DNA of 26,833 bases, from IMG/VR virus record IMGVR_UViG_3300038457_000107, positions 1-26,833 of that record; one strand, given 5' to 3'. The position numbers and the translations under genes are program-made. Numbering within the stretch: position 1 is the stretch's first letter; every line of letters begins with the position of its first letter. This DNA comes from a virus. Of this stretch, positions 1 to 24,746 are shown piece by piece. A model generated the notes under the pieces. It worked only from the letters and a program-made list of their open reading frames with translations, had not been told where the DNA came from and ran no database searches.

Positions 1-1605
1 CTGGAACGCCTTTGTCCAAATGTCGGAAATCAATGAGCCGTGGGCGTAGAAACCTTTCACGTGTAGTCCTGGACCGGCTACCTCGTAATTGTCGAGGGCT
101 GTTCCATTGTTAGACACCGTGGAACTATCAAGGTCAACGCCGTTGAGCTGCGCGGAAGTGGAGAGAGAGTAGTAGATTTCGACGTGATTGCCGTAAAAGT
201 TTCCCGTTCCGTTGTGATACTCGGCTGAAAGGCCGGCATCGTTCAATTCCACGTTTTCAATTCGCGCCCAGCAGGAATCCGTCAAATTGACACCATAGCC
301 AGCGGTAGGGGCCACGGTGCGAATGACGCTGAGATTGGTAAGATTGGGCGCCGTAAGCTGCCCAGCTCCGCAGTTTGCCCCCGTACCGACCATGTCAACT
401 AGATCACCAGTCGCGGTCGCAGAGGTTAGTACCGTAGAGAAAACGGTGAGATGTGGGCCATATCCGCAACCATTTAGCGTTGTGTAAGAATTTGCGAAGA
501 CAACTGTGCCGCCGGTGATCGTGTAGGACTTGCAGAGCAACTGGGTTGTACCGCCATCAACCAGAGCCGCCAGCGCCTTAGTGATCGGCGTGTAGTCGGC
601 GGTCCCCGTGACTCCCCACCATTCCGCATAGTTCACGGTCTGACCCGCGCCATGGGTAAATTTGCCCGTTCCAGCCACGGTGAGAATCTTCACATTCGGC
701 GGTGCGGAACCGACCACTAGACCCGACACTGTGACTCCGGTCGGCGCAACCAATGTGGCTCCTGTCCCAAAATGCAGCGGACAAGGCAGAGCATAGTTCG
801 ACGTGAAGGCGAACGCCCCGGCGGGCAACCACACTTCCGAGTTCGCGGCGCAAGCTGCGGTCATGGCGGTGGAATTGTCGGACGATCCGTTGCCGTTGCC
901 GGAGTAGTTTAGGAGAGAAGCGGCAAAGGTTTCCGTTCCGCCCGATACTGCCAGCGGCGAAGTAACGGCGGTGATGATCGGCGCCGCCTGGAAAGCTCCC
1001 GTCCCCAGCGCCCCGCTCGCACTCGGCTTTTGCCCGTGCGTTCCGTCCGCCACCATCGGCACTTCTGCCGTGGTCCCCGGATCGGCGGAAGTCGCCACTC
1101 CCGCCTCACTGCCAAAACTTGTGTACGACGTTCCCCAGGCCGATCCCGTGGAGTTCGGAATCCCGGCGCCGGGATAGACCATCGAGCCGCCGCCGCCTCC
1201 ACCCCCACTCAAGATCGACGCATTGACCGCTGGCGTGGCCGTCAAAAGGATGGTGGCCGAGCCGGACACGTAGGAGCCGACGCAGACCAGAAACTCGTCT
1301 GCCGAGCCTACCGGCGCGTAGTAACCGCCAGCCGCGGTAATCGTGGTCTGCGCGGTCGAGGAGTTGGTGGGGAAGACTTGCGCCCCGCGCGCCGCGCCGC
1401 CTTCAATCGCCACCTCGGGATTGAGCGTAATGGAGAAAGTCCCGGTTACGTCGATGAAAACGGTGGCCTGCCCTTGGGTGCCGATGGTCGCACACTTCGA
1501 GGTGGAGCTCGAGATGACGAATGGACCTGCCTTCGATTGAGAGAACACGGGCGGACCGAGGGCTAGACAGGCGAGGATAACGAACGCGAAACGGCGCAGA
1601 AGCAT
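1..1605 (-). CDS. Tailspike-like protein with pectate-lyase-like beta-helix and signal peptide (partial)
   Basis: The frame is open from an ATG at 1605 to the left edge (535 codons), so the C-terminus is missing. Residues 1-23 form a signal peptide (MLLRR, hydrophobic core, then PVFS|QS). Residues 24-130 are beta-rich, and a poly-Gly linker follows at 134-140. Around residues 235-265, SGNGNGSSDNSTAMTAAC followed by VWLPAGAF is the usual N-terminal signature of pectate-lyase-like right-handed beta-helix tailspikes. A second such start (NYAEWWGVTG, then the GGTTQLL strand) lies at 326-360. Eight cysteines are visible after the signal peptide. An SD-like AAAGGAGT seven bases upstream fixes the start. 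It is the last visible gene of the fibre cluster. In P22-like phages a protein at this place binds and often degrades surface polysaccharide; that role is inferred here, and the active site is not visible. Confidence 0.85.
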   Translation of the reverse strand, partial: MLLRRFAFVILACLALGPPVFSQSKAGPFVISSSTSKCATIGTQGQATVFIDVTGTFSITLNPEVAIEGGAARGAQVFPTNSSTAQTTITAAGGYYAPVGSADEFLVCVGSYVSGSATILLTATPAVNASILSGGGGGGGSMVYPGAGIPNSTGSAWGTSYTSFGSEAGVATSADPGTTAEVPMVADGTHGQKPSASGALGTGAFQAAPIITAVTSPLAVSGGTETFAASLLNYSGNGNGSSDNSTAMTAACAANSEVWLPAGAFAFTSNYALPCPLHFGTGATLVAPTGVTVSGLVVGSAPPNVKILTVAGTGKFTHGAGQTVNYAEWWGVTGTADYTPITKALAALVDGGTTQLLCKSYTITGGTVVFANSYTTLNGCGYGPHLTVFSTVLTSATATGDLVDMVGTGANCGAGQLTAPNLTNLSVIRTVAPTAGYGVNLTDSCWARIENVELNDAGLSAEYHNGTGNFYGNHVEIYYSLSTSAQLNGVDLDSSTVSNNGTALDNYEVAGPGLHVKGFYAHGSLISDIWTKAFQ

Positions 1606-1612
1606 AAACGAG

Positions 1613-1620
1613 ACTCCTTT
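1613..1620 (-). promoter_or_regulatory. Strong ribosome binding site of the tailspike gene
   Basis: AAAGGAGT on the minus strand lies seven bases before the ATG at 1605. It is the clearest Shine-Dalgarno in the fibre cluster and decides the start that includes the signal peptide. It lies in the 41-base gap after the FN3 gene; the other fibre genes rely on overlaps or near-abutting starts. Confidence 0.75.
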
Positions 1621-1646
1621 CGGTTTTGTTGTGAGAGATAGAGAAG

Positions 1647-2192
1647 CTAGAAGGTGGACCCTCGACCGGAACGCGAAACCGGCGTGGAAGATCCCGGCAC
1701 TACGGCAGTCACTTCGTTCGAATTTAGACTTTCACCGTTCGAGTTGACTGCCGTCACCACGTAGTAGTAAGTGCCCGGAGAAACCGATGTGTCGGAGTAA
1801 GTCGTGATCGGGCTCGAAGAAGAATAGATTTCGGAGTAAGGTCCACCGCTCGTCGTGCTGCGATAGACGTTGTTCGAGAGAACCGGGCCGCAAGTATTTC
1901 CCGAGTTCATCCAATCCGCAATTCCACCGTCGGTTGCGGTTTGGGTTAAGGGTGTCTGCACCCAGGTCGGAGCGGACGAGCCGCTGACCATACTTCCGCC
2001 GCCCGATTGCGCGAAAAAGACATAAGAGCCAGCATTCCCGCTCTGCGGGCAGATCACTTGCCCCGGAACGTAGGATGTGGAAGCTTGCCAGTCGGGAGGG
2101 ATAGACCCTTGCGTCCAAGTCAGATCCACCGTGCCCGCGAAAACGGGCAGAGACGCCAAGAGCAGCGCGAGTTGAAGTAATCTCTTGCACAA
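1647..2192 (-). CDS. Secreted fibronectin-III protein with a nested carbohydrate-module-like insert
   Basis: This 181-aa protein starts at a TTG one base after the TGA of the upstream gene, so translation is probably coupled. Residues 1-19 form a signal peptide (MCKRLLQLALL..LPVFA|GT). The mature protein begins with a fibronectin-III first strand (VDLTW). It is then interrupted by a W-x3-T-x-Y...TDGGIADW module at about residues 35-93. The FN3 fold resumes at NVYRSTTSGGPYSEI, with the typical YYYVVTAVNSNGES and SNEVTAVVP strands. FN3 domains with this wording are very common in secreted acidobacterial proteins (general family knowledge). There are two cysteines after the signal peptide. The likely role is a virion or cell-surface adhesin, by inference. 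The TTG start is the main uncertainty. Confidence 0.75.
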   Translation of the reverse strand: MCKRLLQLALLLASLPVFAGTVDLTWTQGSIPPDWQASTSYVPGQVICPQSGNAGSYVFFAQSGGGSMVSGSSAPTWVQTPLTQTATDGGIADWMNSGNTCGPVLSNNVYRSTTSGGPYSEIYSSSSPITTYSDTSVSPGTYYYVVTAVNSNGESLNSNEVTAVVPGSSTPVSRSGRGSTF

Positions 2193-2193
2193 G

Positions 2194-3027
2194 TCAGTTC
2201 ACGAAACCTCGGTGGCGGGGGACGGCGGAAGAAGGCGGCGAAGCCAACGCGTAGTGAGCGCCGTACATATCCCAGAGCCCCAGCGTGCCGACGAATTGCT
2301 GTGTGGTCGAACCGCTGAGCGAAAGGTTGTAGACGACTTGCCCAATGGTCGCAACCGATGCGTTGACCCCAAGCGTCCAACCGGATGCAGCGGTTAGATC
2401 ACTTCCGGGATAGCCGATCAGCGTGAAAAACATAAAACACGGCGAGGGAGTACAGGCATAAGTTTGCGCCGGGTTCGTGGGTGTGCCGGTTTCGTTTCCC
2501 GCCGGGGCGAGCAACGGCGAGAGGTAGGCACCGACCCCGGCAAACTCGTACAGGCTGAATTCCAACGTACAAACCACACAATGATCGCCAGAGGGAACGA
2601 CCGCCGTGACTACGGTCGTGGTAGCCGTGCTCATAACCGCCGCGTTCGCAATCTCGTAAACCGCCGTGATGCCGTATTTAGTCGCGGTGGCGTTGTCTTG
2701 ATAAGTGGATGCCTGCTCGCATTGAGACGGCCCCCCGAGACACGCCCAGGAAAAACCCGATGTCGTAGCCGCGATGTGGTTGTAGGCGACTCCAGTAAGT
2801 TCGCCGCCGCCGCTCTCCTGCACCCACGCCACAAGAAACAGATGATTCCCGAGTGTCGTGTTGCTGGAGAAACCAACCGCATTCGTGGTGAGCGTTCCAC
2901 CCCCCGTGAATGTCGCGCTTGCGCTTCCACCCGCATTCGCCTGCACCAGCGTGGCCGAGCCGAAGCCCGCCGTCGTCAGTAGGCAAAACAGCAGGCAGAA
3001 GAGAGCAAGGGTAAGAAGTTTTCTCAT
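2194..3027 (-). CDS. Exported beta-rich protein of the fibre cluster, unknown function
   Basis: This 277-aa protein begins with a clear signal peptide (MRKLLTLALFCLLF.., small residues GFGSA near 22-26). No family was recognised. The mature part is rich in Ala, Thr, Gly and aromatic strands, as in carbohydrate-binding or fibre jelly rolls. It has six cysteines, in close pairs ACLGGPSQC, HCVVC and CTPSPC, which fits disulfide formation outside the cytoplasm. It lies seven bases after the 154-aa fibre gene and one base before the FN3 gene, so it is part of the same transcript. The start is an ATG with no good Shine-Dalgarno. It could be an accessory fibre or a surface protein made by the lysogen. 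Confidence 0.75.
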   Translation of the reverse strand: MRKLLTLALFCLLFCLLTTAGFGSATLVQANAGGSASATFTGGGTLTTNAVGFSSNTTLGNHLFLVAWVQESGGGELTGVAYNHIAATTSGFSWACLGGPSQCEQASTYQDNATATKYGITAVYEIANAAVMSTATTTVVTAVVPSGDHCVVCTLEFSLYEFAGVGAYLSPLLAPAGNETGTPTNPAQTYACTPSPCFMFFTLIGYPGSDLTAASGWTLGVNASVATIGQVVYNLSLSGSTTQQFVGTLGLWDMYGAHYALASPPSSAVPRHRGFVN

Positions 3028-3034
3028 TGCGAAT

Positions 3035-3499
3035 TTAGTGGACTATCACCAGCGGAACAGACTTCCAAATCGCAGACCCAGCAGGGCCGGCAGAAGTGCA
3101 GAGGTACAGGAAATTTTGGTCCCAAGCGATTTGACCTTGCACGCAGGCCGTGCTTCCCGAGGATGGCGTCAGCGAATCGGAGATGGCGAAAGGACCGGAA
3201 ACTCTGGTCTCGGAACCGACGCCGATCTGACTTCCTCCATTCCGAACGTAAATGATCCCGTCGGCGACGATCACTCCATTGCCTGAGTTATCGGTGAGTT
3301 GCGCATCGCCGGTTCCTAAATCGGAGACGGAAGCGTGCGCACCTCCGGCGGTCGTCAGCAACATGCGGTGCCCGCCGATCTTGCCAACGATGGGCCCGGT
3401 CATGGTCCCGCCGGTCAGTTTCAGGTACACATCCGAGGTTGCGGCCAACAGGCCGAGACAGCAGAGCAGCAGAAACGCAAGCAGTAATTTGGTTTTCAT
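3035..3499 (-). CDS. Short tail-fibre protein with TGGTMTGPI motif and signal peptide
   Basis: The chosen ATG at 3499 gives 154 aa and an ATGA overlap with the stop of the 301-aa gene. A longer start at 3529 would put a charged extension before the signal peptide. Residues 1-20 are a signal peptide (MKTKLLLAFLLLCCLGLLAA). Directly after it comes YLKLTGGTMTGPI, the LTGG-T-xTG-P repeat typical of phage tail fibres. The C-terminal part (GQIAWDQNFLYLCTSAG..IWKSV) resembles the short beta-strand domains that end many fibre proteins. Two cysteines remain in the mature chain. A fibre motif right behind a signal peptide is unusual. Function as a small fibre or fibre-tip protein is inferred. Confidence 0.8.
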   Translation of the reverse strand: MKTKLLLAFLLLCCLGLLAATSDVYLKLTGGTMTGPIVGKIGGHRMLLTTAGGAHASVSDLGTGDAQLTDNSGNGVIVADGIIYVRNGGSQIGVGSETRVSGPFAISDSLTPSSGSTACVQGQIAWDQNFLYLCTSAGPAGSAIWKSVPLVIVH

Positions 3500-4401
3500 G
3501 GGCTCAACGTTGTGGAATCGACAGTCCAAGTCGTTTGGGTTGAAGCGCCGTCGGAGATGAAACTGAAATTAACAGCATCAAGGTTAGGGATTGTCCCAAT
3601 CGTGAGATTTAATGATCCCGCTTGCCCCCCGCCCGTTTTCGTGTTGTTGCAAGTGATCGGCGCGGTGAGGTAACTGGTTCCGGCATTGTTTTTTGCGTCC
3701 AGCGTGGAACTCCCGGCGTTGTCGGTGTAGCAGTGGATCGCGGTGATCTGCAAACTAAGCCCAGAATTATTGACACAGAAAAATTGCGGATACGTTCCTG
3801 ACGGGATCGCGTTCAAACCGTCGCCAAGTCCGGTTTGACAACTCTTCGCTACTGCAAGGGCCGCATCGATCCAACTTGGGACGCCGCTTTCATCTTCAGT
3901 TAAAACAATGTTTGTTCTCGCTGGCGGAGTCGTAGTGTTTCCCGTCAAGACGGTCCAATGCGCCCCGTCGTAGTAGCAAAGGTCTCCGGGATTCGCGCCG
4001 ATGCAAGCGCCGCCCGAACCGCCCAAAGTAACAGTGTAGGGGCCAAAGCAACTATTCGCGACGCAGACCGTGTAATCGTAGCGGCCCGGCGGAGCCCACC
4101 AGCCGATATTCCCTTGGGCATCACCCGTGCTTTGACAGGCCGAGGGCTGGGGTTGAGGCGTGTCTTGAGATCCTGAAGGACATGTAGCGCCGGTCGAAGT
4201 GAAAACCTGAGCATAGTTTGTGCAAGGAACTGCATTGGCTGGAGAATTACACACAGCCAAAACCGGGGAATTGGGCGGAATGTTCGCCAGAAGATAGGGT
4301 GTTGAAGTGCTCGAAGAGATAGAGGGAAAAGGCGCATCATAGCGAACATTTTGCCCAAAGGCCAACGGCGCCAGCAAAAAGAGCAGGAATAGTTTGCGCA
4401 T
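3496..4401 (-). CDS. Exported cysteine-rich protein of the fibre cluster
   Basis: This 301-aa protein has a short signal peptide (MRKLFLLFLLAPLAFG|QN). The mature chain has 12 cysteines, the most in this window, many spaced as pairs (CNSPANAVPC, VCVANSC, ACIGANPGDLC). Around residues 100-125, GWWAPPGRYDYTVCV resembles an Ig-like or head-binding strand set that ends a fibre N-terminal domain. The C-terminus (LNLTIGTIPNLDAVNFSFISDGASTQ) is beta-rich. No known family is claimed. It starts four bases after the 476-aa fibre gene and overlaps the next gene by ATGA, so it belongs to the fibre operon. The even cysteine count and the leader favour folding in an oxidising compartment. Confidence 0.75.
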   Translation of the reverse strand: MRKLFLLFLLAPLAFGQNVRYDAPFPSISSSTSTPYLLANIPPNSPVLAVCNSPANAVPCTNYAQVFTSTGATCPSGSQDTPQPQPSACQSTGDAQGNIGWWAPPGRYDYTVCVANSCFGPYTVTLGGSGGACIGANPGDLCYYDGAHWTVLTGNTTTPPARTNIVLTEDESGVPSWIDAALAVAKSCQTGLGDGLNAIPSGTYPQFFCVNNSGLSLQITAIHCYTDNAGSSTLDAKNNAGTSYLTAPITCNNTKTGGGQAGSLNLTIGTIPNLDAVNFSFISDGASTQTTWTVDSTTLSP

Positions 4402-4405
4402 ATTA

Positions 4406-5836
4406 TTAGTTGCTCAGCACCGGGGTCACGGACAGATAGGTTGCTTCCGCCGGCGAGAAGGTGAAAACGTCGCTATTCACGGTCACATACTGGGCGGCGT
4501 TGCACTGCACTTGTAGAGTGAAGGTCGGAGTTGCGCCGGCGGCATAAGTGTTTGACGAGATTTCCGATCCCGAGAGCGCCATATAGCCAAAGCCGTTGGA
4601 ATCCTGCCCGGAGAGCGCGAAGGCTTTCGCGTTGGTAGTGTCGATGACTTCCGCCGCGCACGCATTGTTGGCCGCCGAAAACCAGGCACCATAGCGAATG
4701 TCGGCGCGGTAGGTCCCAGGCCCGCTTGGGAATGTCACGGTTTCAGTCAGAACAATGGTCTGAGTCGTCGAGACGAGCGTCACCTGGGAGGCGAGGACAA
4801 CCCTCTGCGGGGGATTGAATGCGGCATTGCAGCCTGTTGTGGTGGCTCCGCCGTTGGTATCGGTACAGAAAACCACTCCCGGAGTGACCGAGGTCGTCCC
4901 CGCGGCTAAGAGTTTCGTATCCCCGCCCGATCCGCCGCCCTGGACCCCAACTTGCGGAACCGAGCCGCCGACTTCCAAAGTGGTGAAATTGCCCGTGTTG
5001 GGCGCGGTCGAGCCGATCGTCCCCGGACTGGCCCAGTCGTAGCCCTCGAGCAAATTGGCGTTGAGATTCGTGACTTCGGTCTGGGAAGCCACGATCAGGG
5101 GAGGATTTCCGGTGGCTATGGTGCTGGTCAACTGCGAGACCGAGCTTGTAGGCCCGTTTCCGGTCACGCACGGGCCTACTGCGGTAGCATTCGTGCCGTC
5201 ATAGACGAATTCTGCGGTCGTGACCTGGTTGGGGGCCGAACCGATGACGCAGCCGCCTACCGAGTTAGCCGGCCAGGAGAAAGTTCGCCCGCCGACCGCA
5301 TCCTGAATGATCTGAAAGAAGATCTCGGCCGGCGGGGAGATCCCGACGAAGGTCAGCGGTTGAGCGGAGGCGTTCCCGGTCAAAGTGAGAATAAATAGCT
5401 GGTTTTCGGCGGCGACGGGGAAATTGGGGGTAGCCGAGTAGGTGATTACCGTGGTGGCGTTGGTCGACCCCCCGCCGCCCAACCCATCAATTGTGACTAC
5501 GGTGCTCCCGCTCGCACAATTCGAGCCGCCAGCGCTTTTGATCACATAGCGATATGCGTTTCCACTTTGGATCCAGACGTTAGCCGTCCCGCCTGCCGAA
5601 AGAATTACGGGGTTGGCGTTGGCTGTGTTTCCTGTGTAATCAGTAAATGTGGCCAGCGGCGTCGTGGAAGCGATCTCGTAGGTAAAGACGCAGCCGAAGG
5701 CGTTGGGCTGGCCGTTTTGCAGGTAGGAGACGAACTGCGGCCAGGGAGACACGACCACGGCGGTCTGAGCGGGGGCGAAGGATGCGCAAAAGATTGCACA
5801 CAGCACGAAGAAAAGAGCGTGGAGGCGGTTGGTCAT
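4406..5836 (-). CDS. Tail fibre with virion-binding-like N-terminal domain behind a signal peptide
   Basis: This 476-aa protein has a signal peptide at residues 1-24 (MTNRLHALFFVLCAIF..APA|QT). The domain that follows (YLQNGQPNAFGCVFTYEI, TPLATFTDYTGNTANANPV, ANVWIQSGNAYRYVI; about residues 38-100) matches the pattern of head-binding domains that open podovirus tailspikes and fibres. A Gly-rich linker (DGLGGGGS) follows. The middle holds fibre segments, including NLLEGYDWASPGTIGSTAPNTGNFTTLEVGG, split here as a typical 'SPGTIGST.PNTGNFTTL' fibre repeat. The C-terminus (res. 345-476) is a beta-rich domain. Eight cysteines lie in the mature part. It is the first minus-strand gene after the plus-strand pair; only 12 bases separate its ATG from the opposite start. 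No Shine-Dalgarno is visible. Confidence 0.85.
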   Translation of the reverse strand: MTNRLHALFFVLCAIFCASFAPAQTAVVVSPWPQFVSYLQNGQPNAFGCVFTYEIASTTPLATFTDYTGNTANANPVILSAGGTANVWIQSGNAYRYVIKSAGGSNCASGSTVVTIDGLGGGGSTNATTVITYSATPNFPVAAENQLFILTLTGNASAQPLTFVGISPPAEIFFQIIQDAVGGRTFSWPANSVGGCVIGSAPNQVTTAEFVYDGTNATAVGPCVTGNGPTSSVSQLTSTIATGNPPLIVASQTEVTNLNANLLEGYDWASPGTIGSTAPNTGNFTTLEVGGSVPQVGVQGGGSGGDTKLLAAGTTSVTPGVVFCTDTNGGATTTGCNAAFNPPQRVVLASQVTLVSTTQTIVLTETVTFPSGPGTYRADIRYGAWFSAANNACAAEVIDTTNAKAFALSGQDSNGFGYMALSGSEISSNTYAAGATPTFTLQVQCNAAQYVTVNSDVFTFSPAEATYLSVTPVLSN

Positions 5837-5848
5837 AATAAATTTGTT

Positions 5849-6175
5849 ATGCTGTCAGGCATGACTCCCGAAGAACGCTGGAAAGTTGAAGGCCGCACCC
5901 GTGAAGAGTTCCGCAAAACCAAAGCCAGTGTCGGCATCCTGAAAGCGGACATCGCAGCCCATGCGGAGCGATTGAAAGAAGCGCATCAGCAAGTAACCCA
6001 GTTTCTTGCCGCACCCACCGGCGGACCCGGCCCAACCGGGATGACACCAGCGCAATACATCGTGCATTTCTTCCGCGATCTCATGCCGCGCGATCTCGAA
6101 CCCAAACTTCAAGAGCTTGCCGAACAGTCGGAACGGCTGGCCAGCCTGGAAAAACTGATCGCCGAATTCGACTGA
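5849..6175 (+). CDS. Coiled-coil protein on the opposite strand, unknown function
   Basis: This plus-strand frame of 108 aa begins at ATG 5849; a second ATG at 5861 (MTPEERWKVEGR) is equally possible. The frame also extends further upstream, but that part is antisense to the fibre gene and looks like shadow. The protein is charged and helical: an N-terminal helix with heptads (REEFRKTKASVGILKADIAAHAERL), a Pro/Gly-rich hinge (APTGGPGPTGM), and a C-terminal helix ending LASLEKLIAEFD. The ordinary amino-acid mix favours this strand over the Cys/Arg-rich opposite frames. No family was recognised. It sits head-to-head with the fibre gene with no room for a promoter between the starts, so its promoter must lie inside the fibre coding region. 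It is followed 58 bases later by a membrane-anchored protein. Confidence 0.6.
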   Translation: MLSGMTPEERWKVEGRTREEFRKTKASVGILKADIAAHAERLKEAHQQVTQFLAAPTGGPGPTGMTPAQYIVHFFRDLMPRDLEPKLQELAEQSERLASLEKLIAEFD

Positions 6176-6233
6176 GGAGTAGCCCGAACGTGGGGTGGAC
6201 TTTCGTATACCTGAGTGTAAGGATGGGGGCGCT

Positions 6234-6443
6234 ATGAGACAGTTCCTTTACCGCGTGCTGTTAGTGGCCATCGGAGTGTTTTTCGGATACGCTCTCGGCT
6301 ATCGTTCACCTGCGCCACCTGCAAAACCTGTTCCCGTGGCTTGCTTTGATTCGCAGGGGAAAGAGATTCCCGATTGGTTTGCGAAGTTTGGCGGCGTCCG
6401 CATCGCATGCGCTCCCGGCGAAGTTGCCAAACTGCCTCACTGA
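6234..6443 (+). CDS. Small membrane-anchored protein with two periplasmic cysteines
   Basis: The ATG at 6234 gives 69 aa; it is preceded by a G-rich stretch (GGATGGGGGC) that could serve as a ribosome binding site. A longer start at 6195 is possible. Residues 5-22 (LYRVLLVAIGVFFGYALGY) form one hydrophobic segment, followed by a Pro-rich stalk (SPAPPAKPVPVA). The C-terminal part has two cysteines (ACFDS, IACAP), so it could be disulfide-linked outside the membrane. It could be a spanin-like or other lysis accessory protein, or a lysogenic conversion gene. Size and topology are compatible, but no family motif is visible. Its 3' end overlaps the 3' end of the convergent ejection gene by seven bases. 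Confidence 0.6.
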   Translation: MRQFLYRVLLVAIGVFFGYALGYRSPAPPAKPVPVACFDSQGKEIPDWFAKFGGVRIACAPGEVAKLPH

Positions 6444-7513
6444 GTTTTCCCCGCCCTTGCCGCTTCGAGTGACTGCTGTAAAATTCCGGTCAAATCCTGC
6501 GTCCCCGCTTGCGCCTTCGGGATAACCTCACCAGTTGCCGTTCCCATCGTCGCGGTTTTTACTGGTACGCCGTTTTTTTTCACCAGCGGGCTTGAATTGC
6601 GGATAGCCGTCGTCCATGCTCGTCCTTTGGAATCCGCCGATTCAACCGCCGCTGCTTGCGATGGGGAAACGTCGCCATGTGTATAAGTCTGGCCATTGTT
6701 CGTGATCGCGGTAAATTCCTGCGCGGCTGGATCGTACTTGTAGCCCTTGATGACGCTCGACTGTACTGGAGTAAACCCCTCCGGCAATTTCCCGGCGGCG
6801 ATGGCTTGCGCGGCAGGCTGATTGCGCAGCGATACTCCGGGCTGTAAAGGCTTTCCGCCGAGCGCAGTTTCAAGCGCCTGCTGCACTTCGGCTGGCTTCG
6901 CCATTGGTGCGGACGGCTTCGCGACGATAACGTCGGAAAATTCAGGACGTCCGGTAGCAGGATCAATCTCAATCGTGCGCGGCGACGGCGCAGTGGGCTT
7001 CGGAGTGGCGGAAGGTCCTGACGGAGATGTACTCGGCTCTTCTCCCGGCACTGGTTCTTCGCCCGCGCCCCCCACTCGCCTGAGCCACGGCAGGAATTCA
7101 GCACCGGGGGGAATCAATTTTCCTACATAGGGGATCTGCCTTGCCTGGGAGATCGCGGCGCTCGCTACTGCATTCGAGATGATCGGATGTTTCGCGGCAA
7201 GTTGCGCAACCGGACGAATCGCAGCACTCGCAAGCGCCCCAACTTCAGGGCCAAGGGCCGGAATGCCTATTCCGGCCCCCAAAATTGCTCCCGTACCAAG
7301 GGCCTGCGCTTTAAGCCCGGCATCCACGGCACTCTTCGGTGCCATCTGCCCCGAGGCTTCAAAGCCCGTGGTAGTGCTCGGAATTTCAGCTTCTTCTTCG
7401 GGCCGGGAAACTGACCTGCCTCCGTACTTGGCCGCAAGCGCGGCAAGATCCGTTCCCGGTGGCATCGCGGGAGTTCCACCGTATTTTGCCGCCAATGCGC
7501 TGAGATCAGGCAT
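6437..7513 (-). CDS. Candidate ejection/internal virion protein with KTSC domain
   Basis: This 358-aa protein has two copies of DL(S/A)ALAAKYGG (residues 3-13 and 22-32) at its N-terminus. A Gly/Ala-rich hydrophobic stretch at about 68-120 (LGTGAILGAGIGIPALGPEVG..) could insert into a membrane. A Pro/Ser linker carries PATGRPEFSDV (185-195), which recurs in the preceding gene. Residues 248-312 fit the KTSC domain: SSVIKGYKYDP..., the GQTYTHGDVSP strand and ADSKGRAWTTAIRN. KTSC domains are small and found in phage and bacterial proteins; their biochemical role is not firmly known. The start overlaps the stop of the 553-aa gene by one base (TAATG). The position matches the P22 ejection proteins; that role is inferred. 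Confidence 0.75.
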   Translation of the reverse strand: MPDLSALAAKYGGTPAMPPGTDLAALAAKYGGRSVSRPEEEAEIPSTTTGFEASGQMAPKSAVDAGLKAQALGTGAILGAGIGIPALGPEVGALASAAIRPVAQLAAKHPIISNAVASAAISQARQIPYVGKLIPPGAEFLPWLRRVGGAGEEPVPGEEPSTSPSGPSATPKPTAPSPRTIEIDPATGRPEFSDVIVAKPSAPMAKPAEVQQALETALGGKPLQPGVSLRNQPAAQAIAAGKLPEGFTPVQSSVIKGYKYDPAAQEFTAITNNGQTYTHGDVSPSQAAAVESADSKGRAWTTAIRNSSPLVKKNGVPVKTATMGTATGEVIPKAQAGTQDLTGILQQSLEAARAGKTQ

Positions 7514-9174
7514 TACGGAATCCCGGCCTCTTTCTTGAAGGCATCGGCTGATTTCTGGTCAGGGAAGGTGAAGCCAGCCACGGTAACGCCCCCCCCGCCC
7601 GACTGCGCCTGATTTCGCGCCATCGGAGCCATCTGCACTGGCTGGAACTTCGAGCCGTAAGTCTGATTGATCGTGCTCAAGGTGTTCTGGTATTTCGTCT
7701 GCGAGCCTTCCGCCATGATCCTCTGCATGTCGCCCATATCGTTCAGCACGGAATCGGGGATCGATTTGCCGCTGAGAGCTTTTCCGATGTGACCTTCGAG
7801 GGCTTGCAGATAGGAACCGCCGCCGTAATTCTGAATCTCGGCCATGTTGATGCGGTGGATGCCTTGAGCCGTCACCACCTGCAACGCGCCTTCCTCAGGG
7901 AGCAACTGGTAGGAAACCACATTGCCTTTCTTCGCGTCGTCCATGATGGCCTGCAACCGCTGGCTGACTGACTGCGCCTGGGCGTAATCTTCCCCGGCCT
8001 TCGTCGCGGCTGCAGTGGCGGGTGCGACCAGATGCGGAGGAACCATCGCGAGAGCGGCGTTCGAGCCCCGCGCAATTTGGGCTTCGATGTTGGCGCGGGC
8101 TATGCCTTCGGCGGTGGCAACGGCAACCTTTCCCGCCTGAATTTGCGGATTGGTCGCTACAGCAACATCTTGTTGAACTTTCTGCTGGGTTGCTGGCGAG
8201 AGTCCTCCACCGGCCGGAATTACGTTCTGCTGTTCCACTTGGCTATGAGCAATTTGCCCCGGCCCTTCATTCTTTTGCTTCACATCGTCAATCACATCTT
8301 TTTCGAGCATCAGCGAGTGATTCAAGATTTGCAGTTGCGCCGGGCCGGGATACTGCGGAGGAAGGGACTGTGCGTATTTCGCCATCGTTGGATCGCGCCG
8401 CAAGGCATTGACCGCAAGTGAATACTGCGCCGCCTGATCCTCGGGAGGCGCTTCAAGTACGGCCTGCAAGCCTTGCGATATTTGCTTATTGGCGTCGGCG
8501 TGCGCGTCGAGTGTGGCCTTGTCCGCTCCTGCAACATCTTTCCGCATTTCGGTGTACTGCTTGAGGAATCCCATCTGCCCCTGAGCGGAAATCCCATATT
8601 TCGGGTCTTGAATGCGGTCGAGCAAAGAAGAAAGGCGGTCACCCGAATTTGTCGGCGCGGGAGTCTCGGAAGTCGGCGCGCTCGCGGCGGGCGTCGAAGA
8701 TTGAGCAGGAGCAGGCGCTGTGCCAGATTGACCGGGAGCGGTCGGCTGCTGAAGCGCCATCACATCGGAAAATTCCGGCGCGCCGGTCGCAGGATTTCTA
8801 ACCACAGTGCGCGGGGGAGCGGTTGACGGTGCGGAAGGCGACGCGCTTGCGCCTCCGGTTGATGCGCCTGGCTGGCGAAAGGTATCGCTAAGAACCTGCG
8901 CGAATCCTTGCCGGTCCTTAAGATCGAGCTGCTGTTGCTGGAGAGCGATGTTCTGTTGCTGAAGGGTTTGCTGCTGCCCCTTGAGTTGCCCCGGAAACAT
9001 CGCACCCTGCTGCTGCATCCGCTGCTGTTCCGCCGCCTGCTGCTGCTGCATGAGCGCGGTCTGCTGTTTCAGCTCGCCGATGCGGGCATACTCCGCCATG
9101 GCGTTCTGACTCGCCTCTTGCCCCATGGCAACATCTTGCGGGATATTCAGCGGGGTTGAAGTGTATCCGCCCAT
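7513..9174 (-). CDS. Large Gln-rich internal virion/DNA-ejection protein
   Basis: This 553-aa protein opens with a helical Gln-rich coiled coil (residues 17-90, many QQQQ runs). A Pro/Ala/Ser linker follows at 100-180 with PATGAPEFSDV at 128-138. The rest is a long helical part with an ISQGLQAVLEAPPEDQAAQYSLAVNALRRDP segment and VLNDMGDMQRIMAEGSQTKYQ near the C-terminus. It has no cysteine and no signal peptide. The C-terminal end (GGVTVAGFTFPDQKSADAFKKEAGIP) is a short beta-alpha unit, like the 'xVxGFxFPSxxAADAFKKxAGI' tails of podovirus ejection proteins. The position between the gp7/gp20-like genes of the P22 order supports an ejected protein that helps DNA cross the cell envelope. The family is inferred from layout and composition. 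Confidence 0.8.
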   Translation of the reverse strand: MGGYTSTPLNIPQDVAMGQEASQNAMAEYARIGELKQQTALMQQQQAAEQQRMQQQGAMFPGQLKGQQQTLQQQNIALQQQQLDLKDRQGFAQVLSDTFRQPGASTGGASASPSAPSTAPPRTVVRNPATGAPEFSDVMALQQPTAPGQSGTAPAPAQSSTPAASAPTSETPAPTNSGDRLSSLLDRIQDPKYGISAQGQMGFLKQYTEMRKDVAGADKATLDAHADANKQISQGLQAVLEAPPEDQAAQYSLAVNALRRDPTMAKYAQSLPPQYPGPAQLQILNHSLMLEKDVIDDVKQKNEGPGQIAHSQVEQQNVIPAGGGLSPATQQKVQQDVAVATNPQIQAGKVAVATAEGIARANIEAQIARGSNAALAMVPPHLVAPATAAATKAGEDYAQAQSVSQRLQAIMDDAKKGNVVSYQLLPEEGALQVVTAQGIHRINMAEIQNYGGGSYLQALEGHIGKALSGKSIPDSVLNDMGDMQRIMAEGSQTKYQNTLSTINQTYGSKFQPVQMAPMARNQAQSGGGGVTVAGFTFPDQKSADAFKKEAGIP

Positions 9175-9192
9175 ATTAAAAGTGTCCGATCT

Positions 9193-9918
9193 CTACCATC
9201 CGAAGTTGCCGCTGCCCAGCGTGCTCACGTAACTGCCCAACTGTCCCATCTGGTCGCTGCCCATCATGCCGCCAAGCGCACCTTGCCACGCTTGATTCGA
9301 TCCCATGGTGCCTTGGGCCCGCGCCATGGCTGCGTTGTTCAGTTGCAACGCCTGTTGCTGGCCGCCCGTGAGGTCGATGTTCGCGAGATTCTGCGCCCCG
9401 GCCTGCCCGAGTTGTCCCATTTGTCCGGTCGAGGTCAGACCCGCATTCGTCCCGCCCATCAGACTCTGATAGTTCGACATGTACTGCTGCAGGGCGTTGT
9501 TATAGGTCGATTGATACGCGGATTGCCCGAGGCCCTGGCCGTACTTCTGCAAGGCCGTGCCCTGCGTCCCGGACATGAGGTTGCCGGTGGCCGCGCCGCC
9601 TGCGTTGAGTGCCTGCGTGCCGGAATTGAGTTGGAACTGATAACCGGGAGTCTGCTGAGCTTGCTGAAGGGTCGGGGCCTGAAAGCCTTTTTGCAGGAGC
9701 GCCTGGAGTCCCGCCGCCGACGTTGAGCCGAGCTGCTGGTAGGGCTGTTCGGCTGCCTGGTTCGCCGCCGTCGCGCTAGCCTGCGAGCCCTGCGCCGCCT
9801 GCTGGTTTTTGAGTTCAAGCTGCTGCGCCTGCTGCGCGCCCTGTGCGAGTTGATTCGAGGCAGTTCCCGCGGCGCCCGCGCCGAGAATTCCGCCGACCAT
9901 CGATCCAATGAAGCCCAT
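9193..9918 (-). CDS. DNA transfer/ejection protein (Gly/Gln-rich, podovirus p32-like)
   Basis: The ATG at 9918 (MGFIGSMVGGILGAGAAG) gives 241 aa; the upstream extension to 9984 lies in the coding end of the GNAT-like gene and is unlikely. The N-terminal Gly-rich segment is hydrophobic and may insert into membranes. The body shows the recurring podovirus pattern YQQLGSTSAAGLQALL...TPGYQFQLNSGTQAL, then ATGNLMSGTQGTALQKYGQGL and Y..YNNALQQYMSNYQSLMG. The family is widely annotated as a DNA transfer or ejection protein. It has no cysteine. It begins 22 bases after the stop of the GNAT-like gene and is followed by the large ejection protein, as expected for the gp7/gp20/gp16-type cluster. The role is inferred from the pattern and the position. 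Confidence 0.82.
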   Translation of the reverse strand: MGFIGSMVGGILGAGAAGTASNQLAQGAQQAQQLELKNQQAAQGSQASATAANQAAEQPYQQLGSTSAAGLQALLQKGFQAPTLQQAQQTPGYQFQLNSGTQALNAGGAATGNLMSGTQGTALQKYGQGLGQSAYQSTYNNALQQYMSNYQSLMGGTNAGLTSTGQMGQLGQAGAQNLANIDLTGGQQQALQLNNAAMARAQGTMGSNQAWQGALGGMMGSDQMGQLGSYVSTLGSGNFGW

Positions 9919-9940
9919 AAGATTTATCCAGTTGCCAGTA

Positions 9941-10396
9941 TCATTTCGAGATCCCGAGCAAAAGCTGATGATGCAGCCGCGCATTTTTCAGCGAACTATG
10001 CTGATTCACTCCGTAGGCCGTCATCCCGGCCCGCAATGCACAATGAATCGCCGCCTCATTCCAGAGCGGGACTGAGCCGGTGATCCGCAAGCACGGCGTT
10101 TTCGCCCAAAGCCACTGAAAGACTTCCCGGAGAGCCCGCGCCCCCGTTCCCCACGAGGCAGGCAACATGCAGATATGCACTTGCCAGCACACGGAATTCT
10201 CCGGGAAGAATACGAACATGCCGCGCAAAATCTCGCCGTCATTGTCAAAAGCGAGCACGTACCAGACGCCTTCATGCAGAACCGGGGTCCACTTCTCCCG
10301 GTCGCCGGCCAAATCGTCGCCGATCCCTGGCCAGACTTTGGGGTGAGTGGCGATGGCACGGATCAGCTTCGCGTCTGCGGTGCGCTCGAACATCAT
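9941..10396 (-). CDS. DUF2824/GNAT-like phage protein
   Basis: The ATG at 10396 gives 151 aa and an ATGA overlap with the stop of the 115-aa gene; a second ATG follows at once. The pattern MFERTADAKLIRAIATHPKVWP, then VWYVLAFDNDGEILGMF-like strands, PENSVCWQVHICMLPASWGTGA and LRITGSVPLWNEAAIHCALRAGM follows the GNAT fold. This includes the pyrophosphate-loop region (WGTGARA) and the alpha-helix that carries the acceptor side. It ends HHQLLLGISK, as in many podovirus homologues of this family. These small acyltransferase-like proteins are common in podovirus structural operons, but no substrate is established. It sits between the neck and ejection genes. The classic R/Q-x-x-G-x-G/A loop is replaced by SWGTGA, so catalysis is uncertain. 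Confidence 0.8.
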   Translation of the reverse strand: MMFERTADAKLIRAIATHPKVWPGIGDDLAGDREKWTPVLHEGVWYVLAFDNDGEILRGMFVFFPENSVCWQVHICMLPASWGTGARALREVFQWLWAKTPCLRITGSVPLWNEAAIHCALRAGMTAYGVNQHSSLKNARLHHQLLLGISK

Positions 10397-10740
10397 CCAA
10401 CTTTCCACCAGCGAGTACCATCGCTTTTTATCTTCATAAAACTGCCGGGAGTCCCCGGAGCTCCGGTCAAGGTGAAGGGGCCGCCTTCGATTCCCTTCAA
10501 GGTGAAAGTGTTCCCGTCCACTGAAGTTTTCGTGTAGGTGATCTCTTTGCACTGCGCCGTCTGCCCGGTGGCCGGATTGAGGCCTGCTGGCGGTGGCGTC
10601 TCTTCCTCATCACCCTTCGAAGTGTCCACCAAATTATGCGGCTGCAAGCCATGCGAGATTAAAAGCCACTGGTAATCAGTCGGGGAAAGGCTTGACCCCA
10701 TGGTGGTCGGCGGCGGAGGGAGAATTTGCTTGGTGGGCAT
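10393..10740 (-). CDS. Small virion-operon protein, unknown function
   Basis: This 115-aa protein begins MPTKQILPPPPTTMGSSL and overlaps the stop of the gp10-like gene by one base (TGATG). A Pro-rich N-terminus is followed by a short helix (LSPTDYQWLLISHGLQPHNLVD), an acidic loop (GDEEETPPP) and a beta-rich C-terminus (NTFTLKGIEGGPFTL, FMKIKSDGTRWWKVG). No family was recognised. It lies where P22 has its tail needle gene (gp26), but the length and sequence do not show the trimeric coiled coil of a needle. It may be a tail-tube or cap accessory protein; this is a position-based guess. Confidence 0.65.
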   Translation of the reverse strand: MPTKQILPPPPTTMGSSLSPTDYQWLLISHGLQPHNLVDTSKGDEEETPPPAGLNPATGQTAQCKEITYTKTSVDGNTFTLKGIEGGPFTLTGAPGTPGSFMKIKSDGTRWWKVG

Positions 10741-12710
10741 CAGGCGAGTTGCGGTTCCACTTCTAAATATGCGTCAGCTATCCTGATCGGCACGGGGTCC
10801 GACCACGATACTTCCCAGACTCGCTTGCGCGCCCGTCCCAACATCCGCATGATGACTCGCGTGTCGTAGCCGCCTTGCGCGCCCACGCTCAAGGTGTAGG
10901 TGTTCGACCAGATTTTCCCGCCATCATTCGACCAGCGGAGCATCACTTGCGGAGGGCGGGGCTGGCCGTCGCCGTCAAGGAGCGGAGGCTGCGCGCCCAG
11001 GCCTACTTCCACGTCAAGCTCGATCTGCTTGAAATAGATCCACTTGTTTTCGTCGGAGATGGTCGGCGATCGGCGGTAGCCGCGGATAGCGTTGCCGAAG
11101 TCGTCATAAAACAAACTCGAAAGCTCGTACACCGTTCCTGTAGCCCAGTCGCCGACGAGATGCTTCTCAAAATTGAAGGTATGGCACATGGCACGATCCG
11201 CGGTGTAAGTTCCCGTGACTGAATTGTAGAAACCGCGCTTGCCCCAATATCCGGTGGAAAGGTCGTAAGCCCAAGTCGCACCCGCCCCGCCGTTCGCACT
11301 CGGAAAATTAAGCACCCAAAACGAGTGACCGTATTCCTGATACGTCCAGCCCACCGCGTCGGACGTGACCCCGTACTGCTGCCAAGCCAGTTCGGTGGCG
11401 TGCGTGGAGATTCTTTGCGCGTTATAGCCCTGGCTTCGATTTGCGATGAGCGCGCCGCGGTCATCTTGTGAAAGCCAAAACACACTCGGATCAATCTGCA
11501 CGGTGGCAAAAGCCGCGCCCGATCCGGTCTCTATAAAGGCGCCCTGAATCGGAATGAAGACAGGAAACCCAGCCCCGGAGTTGTAGTAGACGACCGCTTT
11601 CTTGGCCGAGAAGAAAACAATGGTGCGGTGGTCGCAGATCATGGACGTGATGTTGTCCGGGAAGTAGGAAATGGTCGAGATGTTGAGCCCGTTCCAAATC
11701 GTCGCGTCTTCCAGGTTCGATTGCTGAAAGGTGTGAGAATTCTGCAAGGTGGCGATCACGTAGCCATCGACGAAGCCGATCTGCGCGATCAGCCCGTTGA
11801 ACTGGGTCATGTCCACCGGATAAAAGTTGTTGTCCTGAACCGCGGTGATGTTGAATTGGAGCGTGCCGTCTCCGTTGCCACTGACGATCGTGGTCGGATT
11901 ATTGTTCTCGACGACATAGCCCGAGCCCGGCGTCAATTTGAAGCCGACCACCGAGCCGCCCGGCCCGATCGCGGTCACGGTGTAAGTTGCGCCAGATCCT
12001 GAAACCGAGCCGTCAACCGTTCCCTGATCGCCCGGCGCGTAATTCTGCCCGGCATAACCCGCGGTGATATTCAACTCCAGAGCGCCATCGCCCGCGCCCG
12101 CCGTCACCGCAGTTGCGGCGTTCGGAGTGGTCGAGTAGCCGGTCGATCCCGGCGAGATGGCAACCGTTTCAACCGGCCCGGTGGGGCCAGCACCGGTGAT
12201 GGCGGTTACGGTGTAGACTCCGCCTGCGCCCCCAGCGATCGTGCCGGTGTCATTAATGGCGTACCCGGTTCCCGCGTGACCGGCTGTTACCGTGGCGACT
12301 GAAATCATCCCCACGGTGATGATCGCGGCGGCGGTGATGGCGCCCTTGAAGGTCATCACAAAAAGATTGCCGTTCGCCAGGATGACCAGTTGGGTTTCGT
12401 TCGCGGTCATCATGGGCGGGGTCACCGGCGGACCCGCCAGCACGCCGCGAACAACCGGACCGGCGCCGGTCAGTTCATAGAGTTTCGAAGCCGCGGCAAA
12501 GGTGCGCCCGTTGACGGTGAAGAGGCCGGGAATCGAAGCCTCGCCCGCCATCGAAGCGAAGACTTTTTTCCCCGGCGTGTGCAGTAGGGCGATGGCCGTT
12601 TTCGCGGCGGGCGATTCCGACTGCTCGCAGTAGGCGTTCATACAATCCTCATCGTCGATGTTCGGCGACTGACTCATGTAAGTCGGACCGCAAAAGCCCC
12701 AGCCTTTCAT
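10740..12710 (-). CDS. P22 gp10-like packaged-DNA stabilisation/tail hub protein with inserted repeats
   Basis: This 656-aa protein resembles the P22 gp10 (Phage_stabilise) family. Its N-terminus (FCGPTYMSQSPNIDDEDCMNAYCE) matches the 'S.NID...CIN.Y.E' start of this family. Further family-like elements are GLFTVNGRTFAAASKLYEL, QTETQLVILANGNLF-like strands, PVDMTQFNGLIAQIGFVDGYVIATL, TF..SNLEDATIWNG and VFWLSQDDRGALIANRSQGYNAQRIST. The C-terminus (RWSNDGGKIWSN, RARKRVWEVSWSDP) is also family-like. In P22, gp10 forms the nozzle/hub that closes the head-tail channel. Residues 139-291 hold two tandem copies of a GTGYAIND...YTVTAI...GDGALELNIT beta repeat, inserted in the N-terminal domain. This raises the length above the roughly 470 aa usual for gp10. 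It follows the adaptor gene by three bases. Confidence 0.87.
   Translation of the reverse strand: MKGWGFCGPTYMSQSPNIDDEDCMNAYCEQSESPAAKTAIALLHTPGKKVFASMAGEASIPGLFTVNGRTFAAASKLYELTGAGPVVRGVLAGPPVTPPMMTANETQLVILANGNLFVMTFKGAITAAAIITVGMISVATVTAGHAGTGYAINDTGTIAGGAGGVYTVTAITGAGPTGPVETVAISPGSTGYSTTPNAATAVTAGAGDGALELNITAGYAGQNYAPGDQGTVDGSVSGSGATYTVTAIGPGGSVVGFKLTPGSGYVVENNNPTTIVSGNGDGTLQFNITAVQDNNFYPVDMTQFNGLIAQIGFVDGYVIATLQNSHTFQQSNLEDATIWNGLNISTISYFPDNITSMICDHRTIVFFSAKKAVVYYNSGAGFPVFIPIQGAFIETGSGAAFATVQIDPSVFWLSQDDRGALIANRSQGYNAQRISTHATELAWQQYGVTSDAVGWTYQEYGHSFWVLNFPSANGGAGATWAYDLSTGYWGKRGFYNSVTGTYTADRAMCHTFNFEKHLVGDWATGTVYELSSLFYDDFGNAIRGYRRSPTISDENKWIYFKQIELDVEVGLGAQPPLLDGDGQPRPPQVMLRWSNDGGKIWSNTYTLSVGAQGGYDTRVIMRMLGRARKRVWEVSWSDPVPIRIADAYLEVEPQLA
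11838..12296 (-). repeat. Two tandem ~75-codon beta repeats inside the gp10-like gene
   Basis: Residues 139-216 and 217-291 of the gp10-like protein share the order G-x-x-Y-x-x-(N/G)-D-x-G-T-(I/V), YTVTAI, a (V)-x-x-(V)-x-(I/L)-(S/T)-P-G-S-x-(G)-Y strand and GDG(A/T)L(E/Q)(L/F)NIT. A third, single copy is present in the 245-aa protein at 14641-14868. Such Gly-rich modules occur widely in phage virion proteins. Confidence 0.85.
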
Positions 12711-15087: not shown

Positions 15088-15891
15088 CTAATACGACGGG
15101 AAATATTTCTTATTCGTTCCGTCAAACGTGAAACACAGCTTTTTGTTCACGACCGCAGTAGATGCGAGCGCGATGTTATTGGTCGCAGTCGTGACCCAGG
15201 TAGCGTCGGGAATGGTGCAGAACGGCGCGCCGTAAGGCTGAGTGGCCGATCCGCCACCGCCAAGTAGACCCAGCGTAGCCGATGAGCCCCAAGCCGTGAT
15301 GGAGTAACCGCTGGTCCCGGTAACGTGGAACAGCGGGCCCGATGGATTGACCGCCGCGCCGCCCGAAACCGCAGCGACCGCGAAGGTCACGCCGGCAGGT
15401 TTTGCCTCATTGAAAAAGCCCGGCACCCATGAAGCTGTGATGCTGGAGCAAATCCACTGCCGCCCGCTTTGAATATTCACCGTGGGCGTGACCGAAGCTG
15501 AAGCGGTACAAGAGCCAGAGGGATCGACCGCGACAAAATAATTCGGCGGTCCTGCCAGCACCACCGAGCCGGACAAGTGCGCATTGGCCTGCGTGCCGTT
15601 GTAACCTCGCGTCACGCCGATCCTTGTGCCACTGACCGAGTTGACAAATACGGCTTCGGAGTTGCCCCCGGTGCCGTCTTCGATGTAAAGCAGGGTTGTA
15701 TTCGCGGTAATGCCGGTGGCCGAAGCTACCGTAAAGGTAGTGGTCGATTGCGTCACCGACGCCGAAAGGCTGGTGGCGGTGAGTAAAAGGTTGGTGGCAG
15801 TGGCTTGGGCGTGCGCTTGGTAAATTTGGTAGAACGGCGCGGCAATCACCAAAGCCAGGATGAGCGAGAGAGTAATAGTAAGTTTTTTCAT
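15088..15891 (-). CDS. Exported beta-rich protein downstream of the coat gene
   Basis: The ATG at 15891 gives 267 aa; GGGAG lies nine bases upstream. The frame opens further to 15927, but without such a signal. Residues 1-28 are a signal peptide (MKKLTITLSLILALV.., then YQAHA|QA). Residues 45-110 follow a common phage virion module: TTFTVASATGIT, LYIEDGTGGNSEAVFV, VSGTRIGVTRGYNGTQANAHLSGSVVLAGP. The remainder is beta-rich and ends KKLCFTFDGTNKKYFPSY. The mature chain has four cysteines. It lies 67 bases after the coat gene, far from the other exported fibre proteins, in the place where a decoration or minor head protein is usual. A leader peptide on a virion-type module here is unexpected. 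Confidence 0.8.
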   Translation of the reverse strand: MKKLTITLSLILALVIAAPFYQIYQAHAQATATNLLLTATSLSASVTQSTTTFTVASATGITANTTLLYIEDGTGGNSEAVFVNSVSGTRIGVTRGYNGTQANAHLSGSVVLAGPPNYFVAVDPSGSCTASASVTPTVNIQSGRQWICSSITASWVPGFFNEAKPAGVTFAVAAVSGGAAVNPSGPLFHVTGTSGYSITAWGSSATLGLLGGGGSATQPYGAPFCTIPDATWVTTATNNIALASTAVVNKKLCFTFDGTNKKYFPSY

Positions 15892-15958
15892 GGTTTTTGT
15901 CTCCCGATTGGAATGTACGTACAACACCGTACAACCAGGTGCGGGAAATCTCCTTTTC

Positions 15959-23884: not shown

Positions 23885-24300
23885 TTCGGGGCAAGCGCAC
23901 GCTTGCGGGCTTTCTGGATGGCTTCCGAGAGTACGAGGTTCACGTTCATCTCAATCGGCTTGTCGTGCAGGTGGTTCACGGTGTCCACCGGGCGACCGTA
24001 GGCGCGGTCTTCGAGGTAGCGCAATAAATTCGTGAGCGGGATGATGGAGAACTTTCCCTGATAGTCGGGGCCTTCGATAGCACCTTTCGGCGGAGGCAAG
24101 AGTTTGCCATCGTCACCGATGCCGAGCCGGTTTTTCTCCAACTCGATAAGCGAATTCCAGAGCGTTTCCGACTTCGCCTGGTTGAGCACTCGCAACGCGA
24201 CATTGACGTTGGTCGGACGAACGGACTTTGGCCGCCCGAGTTTCTTTTTCTCGCCGGTCTTTGGATCGATGCCCGGTTCACGTTTTCCGCCGCGGCCCAT
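23881..24300 (-). CDS. Terminase small subunit candidate
   Basis: This 139-aa protein lies directly upstream of TerL, overlapping it by ATGA, and overlaps the HNH gene stop by one base (TAATG). It opens MGRGGKREPGIDPKTGEKKKLGRPK, a basic Gly-rich tail of the AT-hook/'GRP' type. A helical part (VNVALRVLNQAKSETLWNSLIELEKNRLG) follows, then an Asp/Pro/Gly-rich loop and a C-terminal helical part with NLLRYLEDRAYGRPVDTV, typical of DNA-binding small subunits that end in 'LxYLxDRAYGKP'. The position and the AYGRP motif favour TerS, which recognises phage DNA and loads TerL. The basic N-terminus is shared with the neighbouring HNH protein. No HTH is firmly recognised. Confidence 0.8.
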   Translation of the reverse strand: MGRGGKREPGIDPKTGEKKKLGRPKSVRPTNVNVALRVLNQAKSETLWNSLIELEKNRLGIGDDGKLLPPPKGAIEGPDYQGKFSIIPLTNLLRYLEDRAYGRPVDTVNHLHDKPIEMNVNLVLSEAIQKARKRALAPK

Positions 24301-24680: not shown

Positions 24681-24683
24681 ATA

Positions 24684-24690
24684 CTCCCCC
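24684..24690 (-). promoter_or_regulatory. Ribosome binding site of the HNH gene
   Basis: GGGGGAG on the minus strand lies three bases before the ATG at 24680. The spacing is short, but it is the only purine-rich signal in the 66-base gap after the recombinase gene and it decides the start. Confidence 0.6.
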
Positions 24691-24746
24691 CGCCAACAAA
24701 GGGTAGCAGTCTTGAGGCCAAAAAAGCCCAAATAGATTCAAACAAA

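Follow-up and report, generated by a model that had tools for sequence, protein, structure and literature searches.

Export signals on the host-recognition fibres and a post-capsid protein, and not on the core, of a widespread group of P22-like soil phages suggest that the outer virion parts are exported

Leader-bearing genes of a P22-like podovirus

The window, by which we mean the whole stretch of 26,833 bases of a virus record that was analysed, belongs to a P22-like podovirus (Table 1). Its major capsid protein is assigned to the P22 coat family by profile searches (PF11651, E = 1.9e-24; phrog_283, E = 1.5e-51), and the phage also has terminase, portal, and tail genes. The IMG/VR search returned 325 capsid relatives. 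A near-complete twin record of 43.6 kb, G001, has a 100% identical capsid protein. The closest isolated relatives are phages of Proteobacteria, namely Xanthomonas phage PBR31 and phages of Vibrio, Shewanella, and Thalassomonas; homology between the internal proteins of the window and those of PBR31 is not detectable.

Table 1. Coordinates of the leader-bearing genes and of the core genes in the window. Leaders and cleavage sites are predicted.
Feature	Position	Strand	Leader	Mature N terminus	Remarks
F1, fibre gene	1–1605	−	MLLRRFAFVILACLALGPPVFS	QSKAG	Cut by window edge
F2, 181 aa	1647–2192	−	MCKRLLQLALLLASLPVFA	GT	TTG start; 2 mature Cys
F3, 277 aa	2194–3027	−	MRKLLTLALFCLLFCLLTTAGFG	SA	6 mature Cys
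F4, 154 aa	3035–3499	−	MKTKLLLAFLLLCCLGLLAA	TS	Weak tail-protein PHROG match; 2 mature Cys
F5, fibre gene, 301 aa	3496–4401	−	MRKLFLLFLLAPLAFG	QNVRY	Modular N-domain; 12 mature Cys
F6, tailspike-type gene, 476 aa	4406–5836	−	MTNRLHALFFVLCAIFCASFAPA	QTAVV	8 mature Cys
F6 predicted Sec/signal peptidase I leader, 23 aa	5768–5836	−
F6 head-binding domain, 99 aa	5471–5767	−			P22-type, from mature residue 1; Cys26/Cys84
Three successive genes	6437–9984	−	None		Ejection/internal-protein position of P22-like phages; 0 to 2 Cys
Tail stabilisation protein, P22 gp10-like	10740–12710	−	None		Identity from gene order
Post-capsid gene	15088–15891	−	MKKLTITLSLILALVIAAPFYQIYQAHA	QATAT	Immediately after major capsid gene; mature 239 aa, 4 Cys
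Major capsid protein, P22 coat family (PF11651)	15959–17203	−	None
Terminase large subunit	22385–23884	−	None

The six minus-strand genes F1–F6 each start with a basic n-region, which is followed by a hydrophobic core and by small residues at the predicted cleavage site, as the preliminary description of this DNA had reported. That description recognised a set of six, all of which we confirm, but the set is larger: it missed a seventh member, the gene that follows the capsid gene, and G001 carries an eighth leader gene downstream at 30286–31083, beyond the window and with an odd Cys count. The post-capsid leader begins at an internal ATG (15891) of the open reading frame 15088–15927. For F3, cleavage at GFG/SA or at GSA/TL is possible. 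The F1 gene is full-length in G001, where it encodes 851 residues.

Leaders were called with a heuristic scorer based on a basic n-region, an uncharged 9-mer with a mean Kyte–Doolittle hydropathy of at least 1.8, and small residues at −3 and −1. With this scorer, the six fibre-cluster genes reach 4.2–4.8 and the frame at 15088–15927 reaches 5.07, and no further minus-strand gene of the window comes close to these seven. The N termini thus have the features of Sec/signal peptidase I substrates, that is, a basic n-region, a hydrophobic h-region, and small residues at −3 and −1. None of the seven window leaders has a lipobox or a +1 Cys for signal peptidase II, which excludes a lipoprotein reading for these genes. 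Leaderless isoforms made from internal starts are unlikely, since the first internal Met lies at mature residue 49 or beyond or is absent, F4 being the exception with a Met at mature residue 13.

That these leaders are artefacts, either chance hydrophobic N termini or the product of miscalled start codons, is highly improbable. The start codons are predicted and the scorer is heuristic; however, none of 205 homologues of eleven core families in 27 related records passes a score of 3.9, and of 4,100 shuffled core N termini only 3 do (0.07%). With pass rates this low, six neighbouring matches lie far beyond chance. Shuffled N termini of the leader genes themselves pass in 2.3% of cases. The leaders are, moreover, retained in records that have diverged and are present in annotated isolates.

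Conservation of the leaders, the head-binding domain, and the cysteines

Homologues for the comparison of leaders were recruited by their mature domains alone. Across the 27 related records, no member of the capsid, portal, terminase, scaffold, tail, or internal-protein families reaches a leader-bearing score, and almost all homologues of F6, F5, F1, and the post-capsid protein do. Several low-scoring homologues that were handled badly by the scorer or the open-reading-frame caller show a leader upon inspection of the N terminus (F6 in G003, G007, G021, G006, and G025; F5 in G018 and G033; the post-capsid protein in G015), and the calls for G026 F6, G010/G009 F1, and G024 are impossible to judge. 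Only the post-capsid gene of G033 is a genuine exception and lacks a leader.

The predicted leaders diverge faster than the domains that they precede, with a median pair identity of 0.32 for the leader versus 0.53 for the mature domain in F6 and of 0.41 versus 0.51 in the post-capsid protein. As they diverge, they keep their hydrophobicity, their positive charge, and the −3 and −1 residues, and the post-capsid leaders are devoid of acidic residues. This is the pattern of a working signal peptide. A Gln residue occupies position +1 after all 31 post-capsid leaders and after 28 of 39 F6 leaders. The “Q-rule” that describes a +1 Gln was formulated for Bacteroidetes; in a small sample from Acidobacteriota, Gln is likewise the most frequent +1 residue (7 of 21).

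The mature part of F6 opens with a domain that, in a profile search, matches the solved structure 7eeq (“Tailspike head-binding domain”, E = 1.2e-7). An AlphaFold model of this domain searched with Foldseek matches proteins of P22, Pam1, Pan3, and Sf6, with 2xc1, 7eeq, and 9vyg at E ≤ 2.3e-4 and 2vky at E = 2.5e-3. Similar to a tailspike gene, F6 is located after the internal-protein genes. The first residue of the head-binding domain coincides with the predicted cleavage point, and nine leaderless phage proteins have this domain only a few residues after their initiator Met. Since these relatives start at the same domain, a leader has been gained by, or lost from, an otherwise complete virion-attachment protein. 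P22-type tailspikes are synthesised and assembled in the cytoplasm and lack a leader, whereas F6 and its leader-bearing homologues have one. The tailspikes of P22/Sf6 and of the cyanophages Pam1 and Pan3 share the head-binding fold and the phage type with F6 but differ in that F6 has a Sec leader before the domain and a Cys pair within it.

The leaderless proteins include those of the proteobacterial relatives. In PBR31 and the P22-like phages of Vibrio, Shewanella, and Thalassomonas (PMC10975493), the capsid protein is ∼26–30% and the head-binding domain ∼33–42% identical to that of this phage, and the tailspike starts at the head-binding domain, with neither leader nor Cys pair. The preliminary description had held that leaderless homologues would count against export. 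Such proteins do exist, but they form a different branch, that of the proteobacterial phages, and lack the Cys pair; because they start at the very point where the leader-bearing proteins are predicted to be cleaved, they strengthen the case for export.

The cysteines track the leaders. Recruiting non-redundant members by the head-binding domain alone, we find the domain Cys pair in 46 of 47 leader-bearing and 1 of 11 leaderless proteins (Fisher p = 2e-9), and the mature Cys count is even in 47 of 49 non-redundant leader-bearing fibre and post-capsid proteins (p = 4e-12), although both p values overstate independence, as the statistics derive from related sequences and non-independent events. 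The single leader-bearing protein without the pair (L268) is misclassified and truly leaderless, with its start 4 residues before the domain, and a leaderless contig pair (L244/L245) retains two Cys in the head-binding domain. In the alignment, Cys26 and Cys84 are present or absent together, and the members that lack them (G015, G033, and G025) bear other pairs. The N-domain of F5 has four invariant Cys and one pair that is lost jointly. Among core proteins, 49 have even and 67 odd counts, and Cys density is 0.66 per 100 residues, compared with 2.05 in the leader-bearing proteins. From the post-capsid gene through F6 to F1, the last counted from G001, the mature proteins of the seven window genes contain 4, 8, 12, 2, 6, 2, and 16 Cys. 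Even totals are expected if all Cys are paired, which would imply folding in an oxidising compartment, and we infer from the even counts that these proteins are disulfide-bonded.

In the post-capsid protein, a conserved N-terminal domain that contains two invariant Cys is joined to an exchangeable C-terminal domain. The latter is of two kinds, which mostly have a Cys pair of their own; all 40 complete homologues have 2, 4, or 6 Cys. Its structural model gives weak matches to phage structural β domains, including those of the VP1 capsid protein and the GP4 portal-tail complex. That this protein is an adhesin bound to the capsid is plausible, but no more than a guess.

Taken as an exported phage adhesin set, which is how the preliminary description had framed it, the leader-bearing proteins now have strong sequence support for export, through the conserved leaders, the −3/−1 residues, the +1 Gln, and the Cys that track them. 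Very unlikely is a variant in which the leaders are uncleaved membrane anchors that hold the fibres at the inner membrane, with particles docking there. Some leaders are indeed long and have strong cores, for instance those of F6 in G021 and G007, but the small −3/−1 residues and the +1 Gln are conserved, the head-binding domain starts precisely at the cleavage site, and, to judge from the even Cys counts, the mature part lies outside.

Probable hosts and other phages

Strong matches to the head-binding domain occur in 3 of 396 Acidobacteriota genomes (G035, G276, and G316), all of them leader-bearing and one a 6.4-Mb chromosome in which two more leader genes adjoin. Because leader-bearing homologues occur in these genomes, the host of the clade is probably an acidobacterium. 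A capsid match is likewise found in 3 of the 396 genomes, and a scan of bacterial genome contigs for the capsid gene identified two contigs in metagenome-assembled genomes (Acidobacteria and Betaproteobacteria), both leader-bearing.

Two near-identical cultivated podophages of Tunturiibacter psychrotolerans X5P2, Tunturi_1 and Tunturi_2 (PMC11924767), counted here as one instance, carry Sec leaders on gp12, gp13, gp14, and gp17 and also on gp16. Their mature Cys counts are 20 (gp12), 10 (gp13), 20 (gp14), 32 or 34 (gp17), and 1 (gp16). Similar to the clade described here, they are podoviruses with leaders and even Cys counts on large fibre or tailspike genes, and their host is an acidobacterium, as that of the clade probably is; their compared fibre, capsid, portal, and terminase proteins are not detectably similar to those of the clade. 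For Tunturi_1, the comparison of fibres, capsid, portal, terminase, and tail with those of the clade gave no meaningful similarity except for one 48-residue stretch. Signal peptides are unmentioned in the text of PMC11924767. The structural genes checked in Tunturi_3, a phage of the same host strain, lack leaders, which rules out a habit imposed by the host, and those examined in Tunturi_4 and Tunturi_5 lack them as well. Since cultivated phages with the trait (Tunturi_1/2) and without it (Tunturi_3) share a host strain, the question is directly testable.

Signal peptides on phage genes have precedents of other kinds. The virion proteins of filamentous phages carry them, but those phages are assembled at the membrane and extruded, and, unlike the phage of the window, are not tailed and do not lyse the cell. 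Phages of Porphyromonas gingivalis carry type-I signal peptides that follow the Q-rule on five genes of unknown function (PMC10367356); the type-I leaders and the +1 Gln are alike, whereas the genes are non-fibre genes and were read as possible modifiers of the outer membrane. The Bacteroides phage crAss001 is a podovirus with several tailspike genes and a host phylum that obeys the Q-rule, yet none of its fibre or tailspike proteins is leader-bearing by the heuristic scorer, so that an extension to Bacteroidota phages is not borne out. A description of leader-bearing tail fibres was not found in the open-licence literature searched.

Possible completion of the virion outside the cytoplasm

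To our knowledge, standard accounts all place the assembly of tailed phages in the cytoplasm. The region that runs from the tail gene to the end of the fibre block was inspected in eight records. All recognisable fibre genes in it are leader-bearing, no leaderless fibre candidate was seen, and the leaderless genes near the fibres are small conserved genes or the Cys-poor internal-protein set. The head-binding domain, the gene order, and the lack of any other fibre lead us to infer that these proteins, once exported, are incorporated into the virion. Of the two functions that the preliminary description had offered, virion parts added outside the cytoplasm therefore fits better, on the strength of the P22-type head-binding domain, the tailspike gene position, and the lack of a leaderless replacement fibre; for the other, decoy or surface display by the lysogen, we found nothing that links export to lysogeny.

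A virion-attachment domain is recognisable in only one of the fibres, and F2, F3, and F4, in which none is recognised, could be secreted proteins of another kind. It is nonetheless unlikely that the leader-bearing proteins as a whole stay apart from the virion and work, once exported, as adhesins or depolymerases directed at the infected cell or at neighbouring cells, in receptor stripping, superinfection exclusion, as decoys, or in biofilm attachment. The evidence for export would be identical, several members are long, modular, and adhesin-like, and the Acidobacteriota chromosome G276 carries a leader-bearing fibre cassette without a recognised capsid gene in its vicinity. However, the mature N terminus of F6 is a P22-type head-binding domain, F6 occupies the position of a tailspike gene, and no leaderless candidate was seen in the tail and fibre block; a phage whose virion had no fibre would be odder.

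The reading that we favour, and regard as quite likely, is that the exterior adhesins are exported and oxidised and join particles built in the cytoplasm at lysis, so that the last steps of virion assembly take place outside it. The adhesive parts of the exterior, which comprise the tailspike with its head-binding domain, the further fibres, and the post-capsid protein, would each be made as a Sec precursor and cross the inner membrane. Signal peptidase I would then cut the precursor, usually leaving the +1 Gln at the N terminus, and the mature adhesins would fold in the periplasm with disulfide bonds. Meanwhile, the leaderless capsid, portal, tail hub, and ejection proteins would assemble around the DNA in the cytoplasm as usual. 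Upon lysis, the two pools would mix, and the head-binding domain of the tailspike, its N terminus released by signal peptidase, would dock on the tail machine. Joining after lysis appears feasible because P22 tailspikes bind preformed heads in vitro. It would have to succeed in dilute medium, which is a difficulty.

Export might also serve twice, for oxidative folding and, before lysis, for stripping or blocking receptors, with the proteins joining the virion afterwards. This is a version of the export-and-join reading and does not exclude it; it follows from having exported receptor-binding proteins, and nothing contradicts it, but direct evidence for the receptor-blocking step is lacking, and we regard it as possible though doubtful. 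In its broadest form, the export-and-join reading holds that the core is cytoplasmic, that all exterior adhesins, including the capsid-associated one, are oxidised in the periplasm and fitted after lysis, and that this mode of assembly arose in at least two unrelated podophage lineages, probably all with acidobacterial hosts. In that form, it appears moderately likely.

If entire sets of receptor-binding proteins are indeed oxidised after export and before assembly, virions are finished outside the cytoplasm, these proteins can make use of disulfide bonds, and they may be shed or displayed by infected cells ahead of lysis. The leaders also bear on annotation, where caution is warranted with the common rule that a signal peptide marks a bacterial and not a phage protein; the absence of signal peptides has, for instance, been taken as support for a phage origin of DGR proteins (PMC6199706).

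Exchangeable domains and segment sharing in the post-capsid and tail proteins

In the protein encoded directly after the major capsid gene and in its homologues, the N-terminal domain is conserved and the C-terminal domains are exchangeable, an arrangement that resembles that of receptor-binding proteins. As seen in the near-identical twin record, G001, a segment of the gp10-like tail protein (approximately residues 138–223) recurs in a neighboring gene with 55% identity.

Fibre genes and leaders in relatives

A three-gene, leader-bearing fibre cassette is found in an Acidobacteriota chromosome (G276:C1:5998692-6004679, L324), and no capsid gene was recognized near it. The head-binding protein of L244/L245 is leaderless, yet its domain contains two cysteines; the leader was possibly lost recently.

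Recombinase region and plus-strand genes

The tyrosine-recombinase-like and HNH-like genes immediately precede the terminase genes, and the phage may be temperate. One of the two small genes next to the fibre cluster encodes an N terminus with a strong hydrophobic stretch and is perhaps a lysis or membrane protein.

Positions of the features discussed, in window coordinates
Feature	Position	Strand	Remark
Two small genes	5567-6443	+ (opposite)	between internal-protein genes and fibre cluster
gp10-like tail protein	10740-12710
Gene with recurring segment	14254-15027
Post-capsid protein	15088-15927
HNH-like gene	24300-24731		read from sequence
Tyrosine-recombinase-like gene	24747-25289		read from sequence
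LuxR-type helix-turn-helix regulator	25779-26267		adjoins recombinase region; read from sequence
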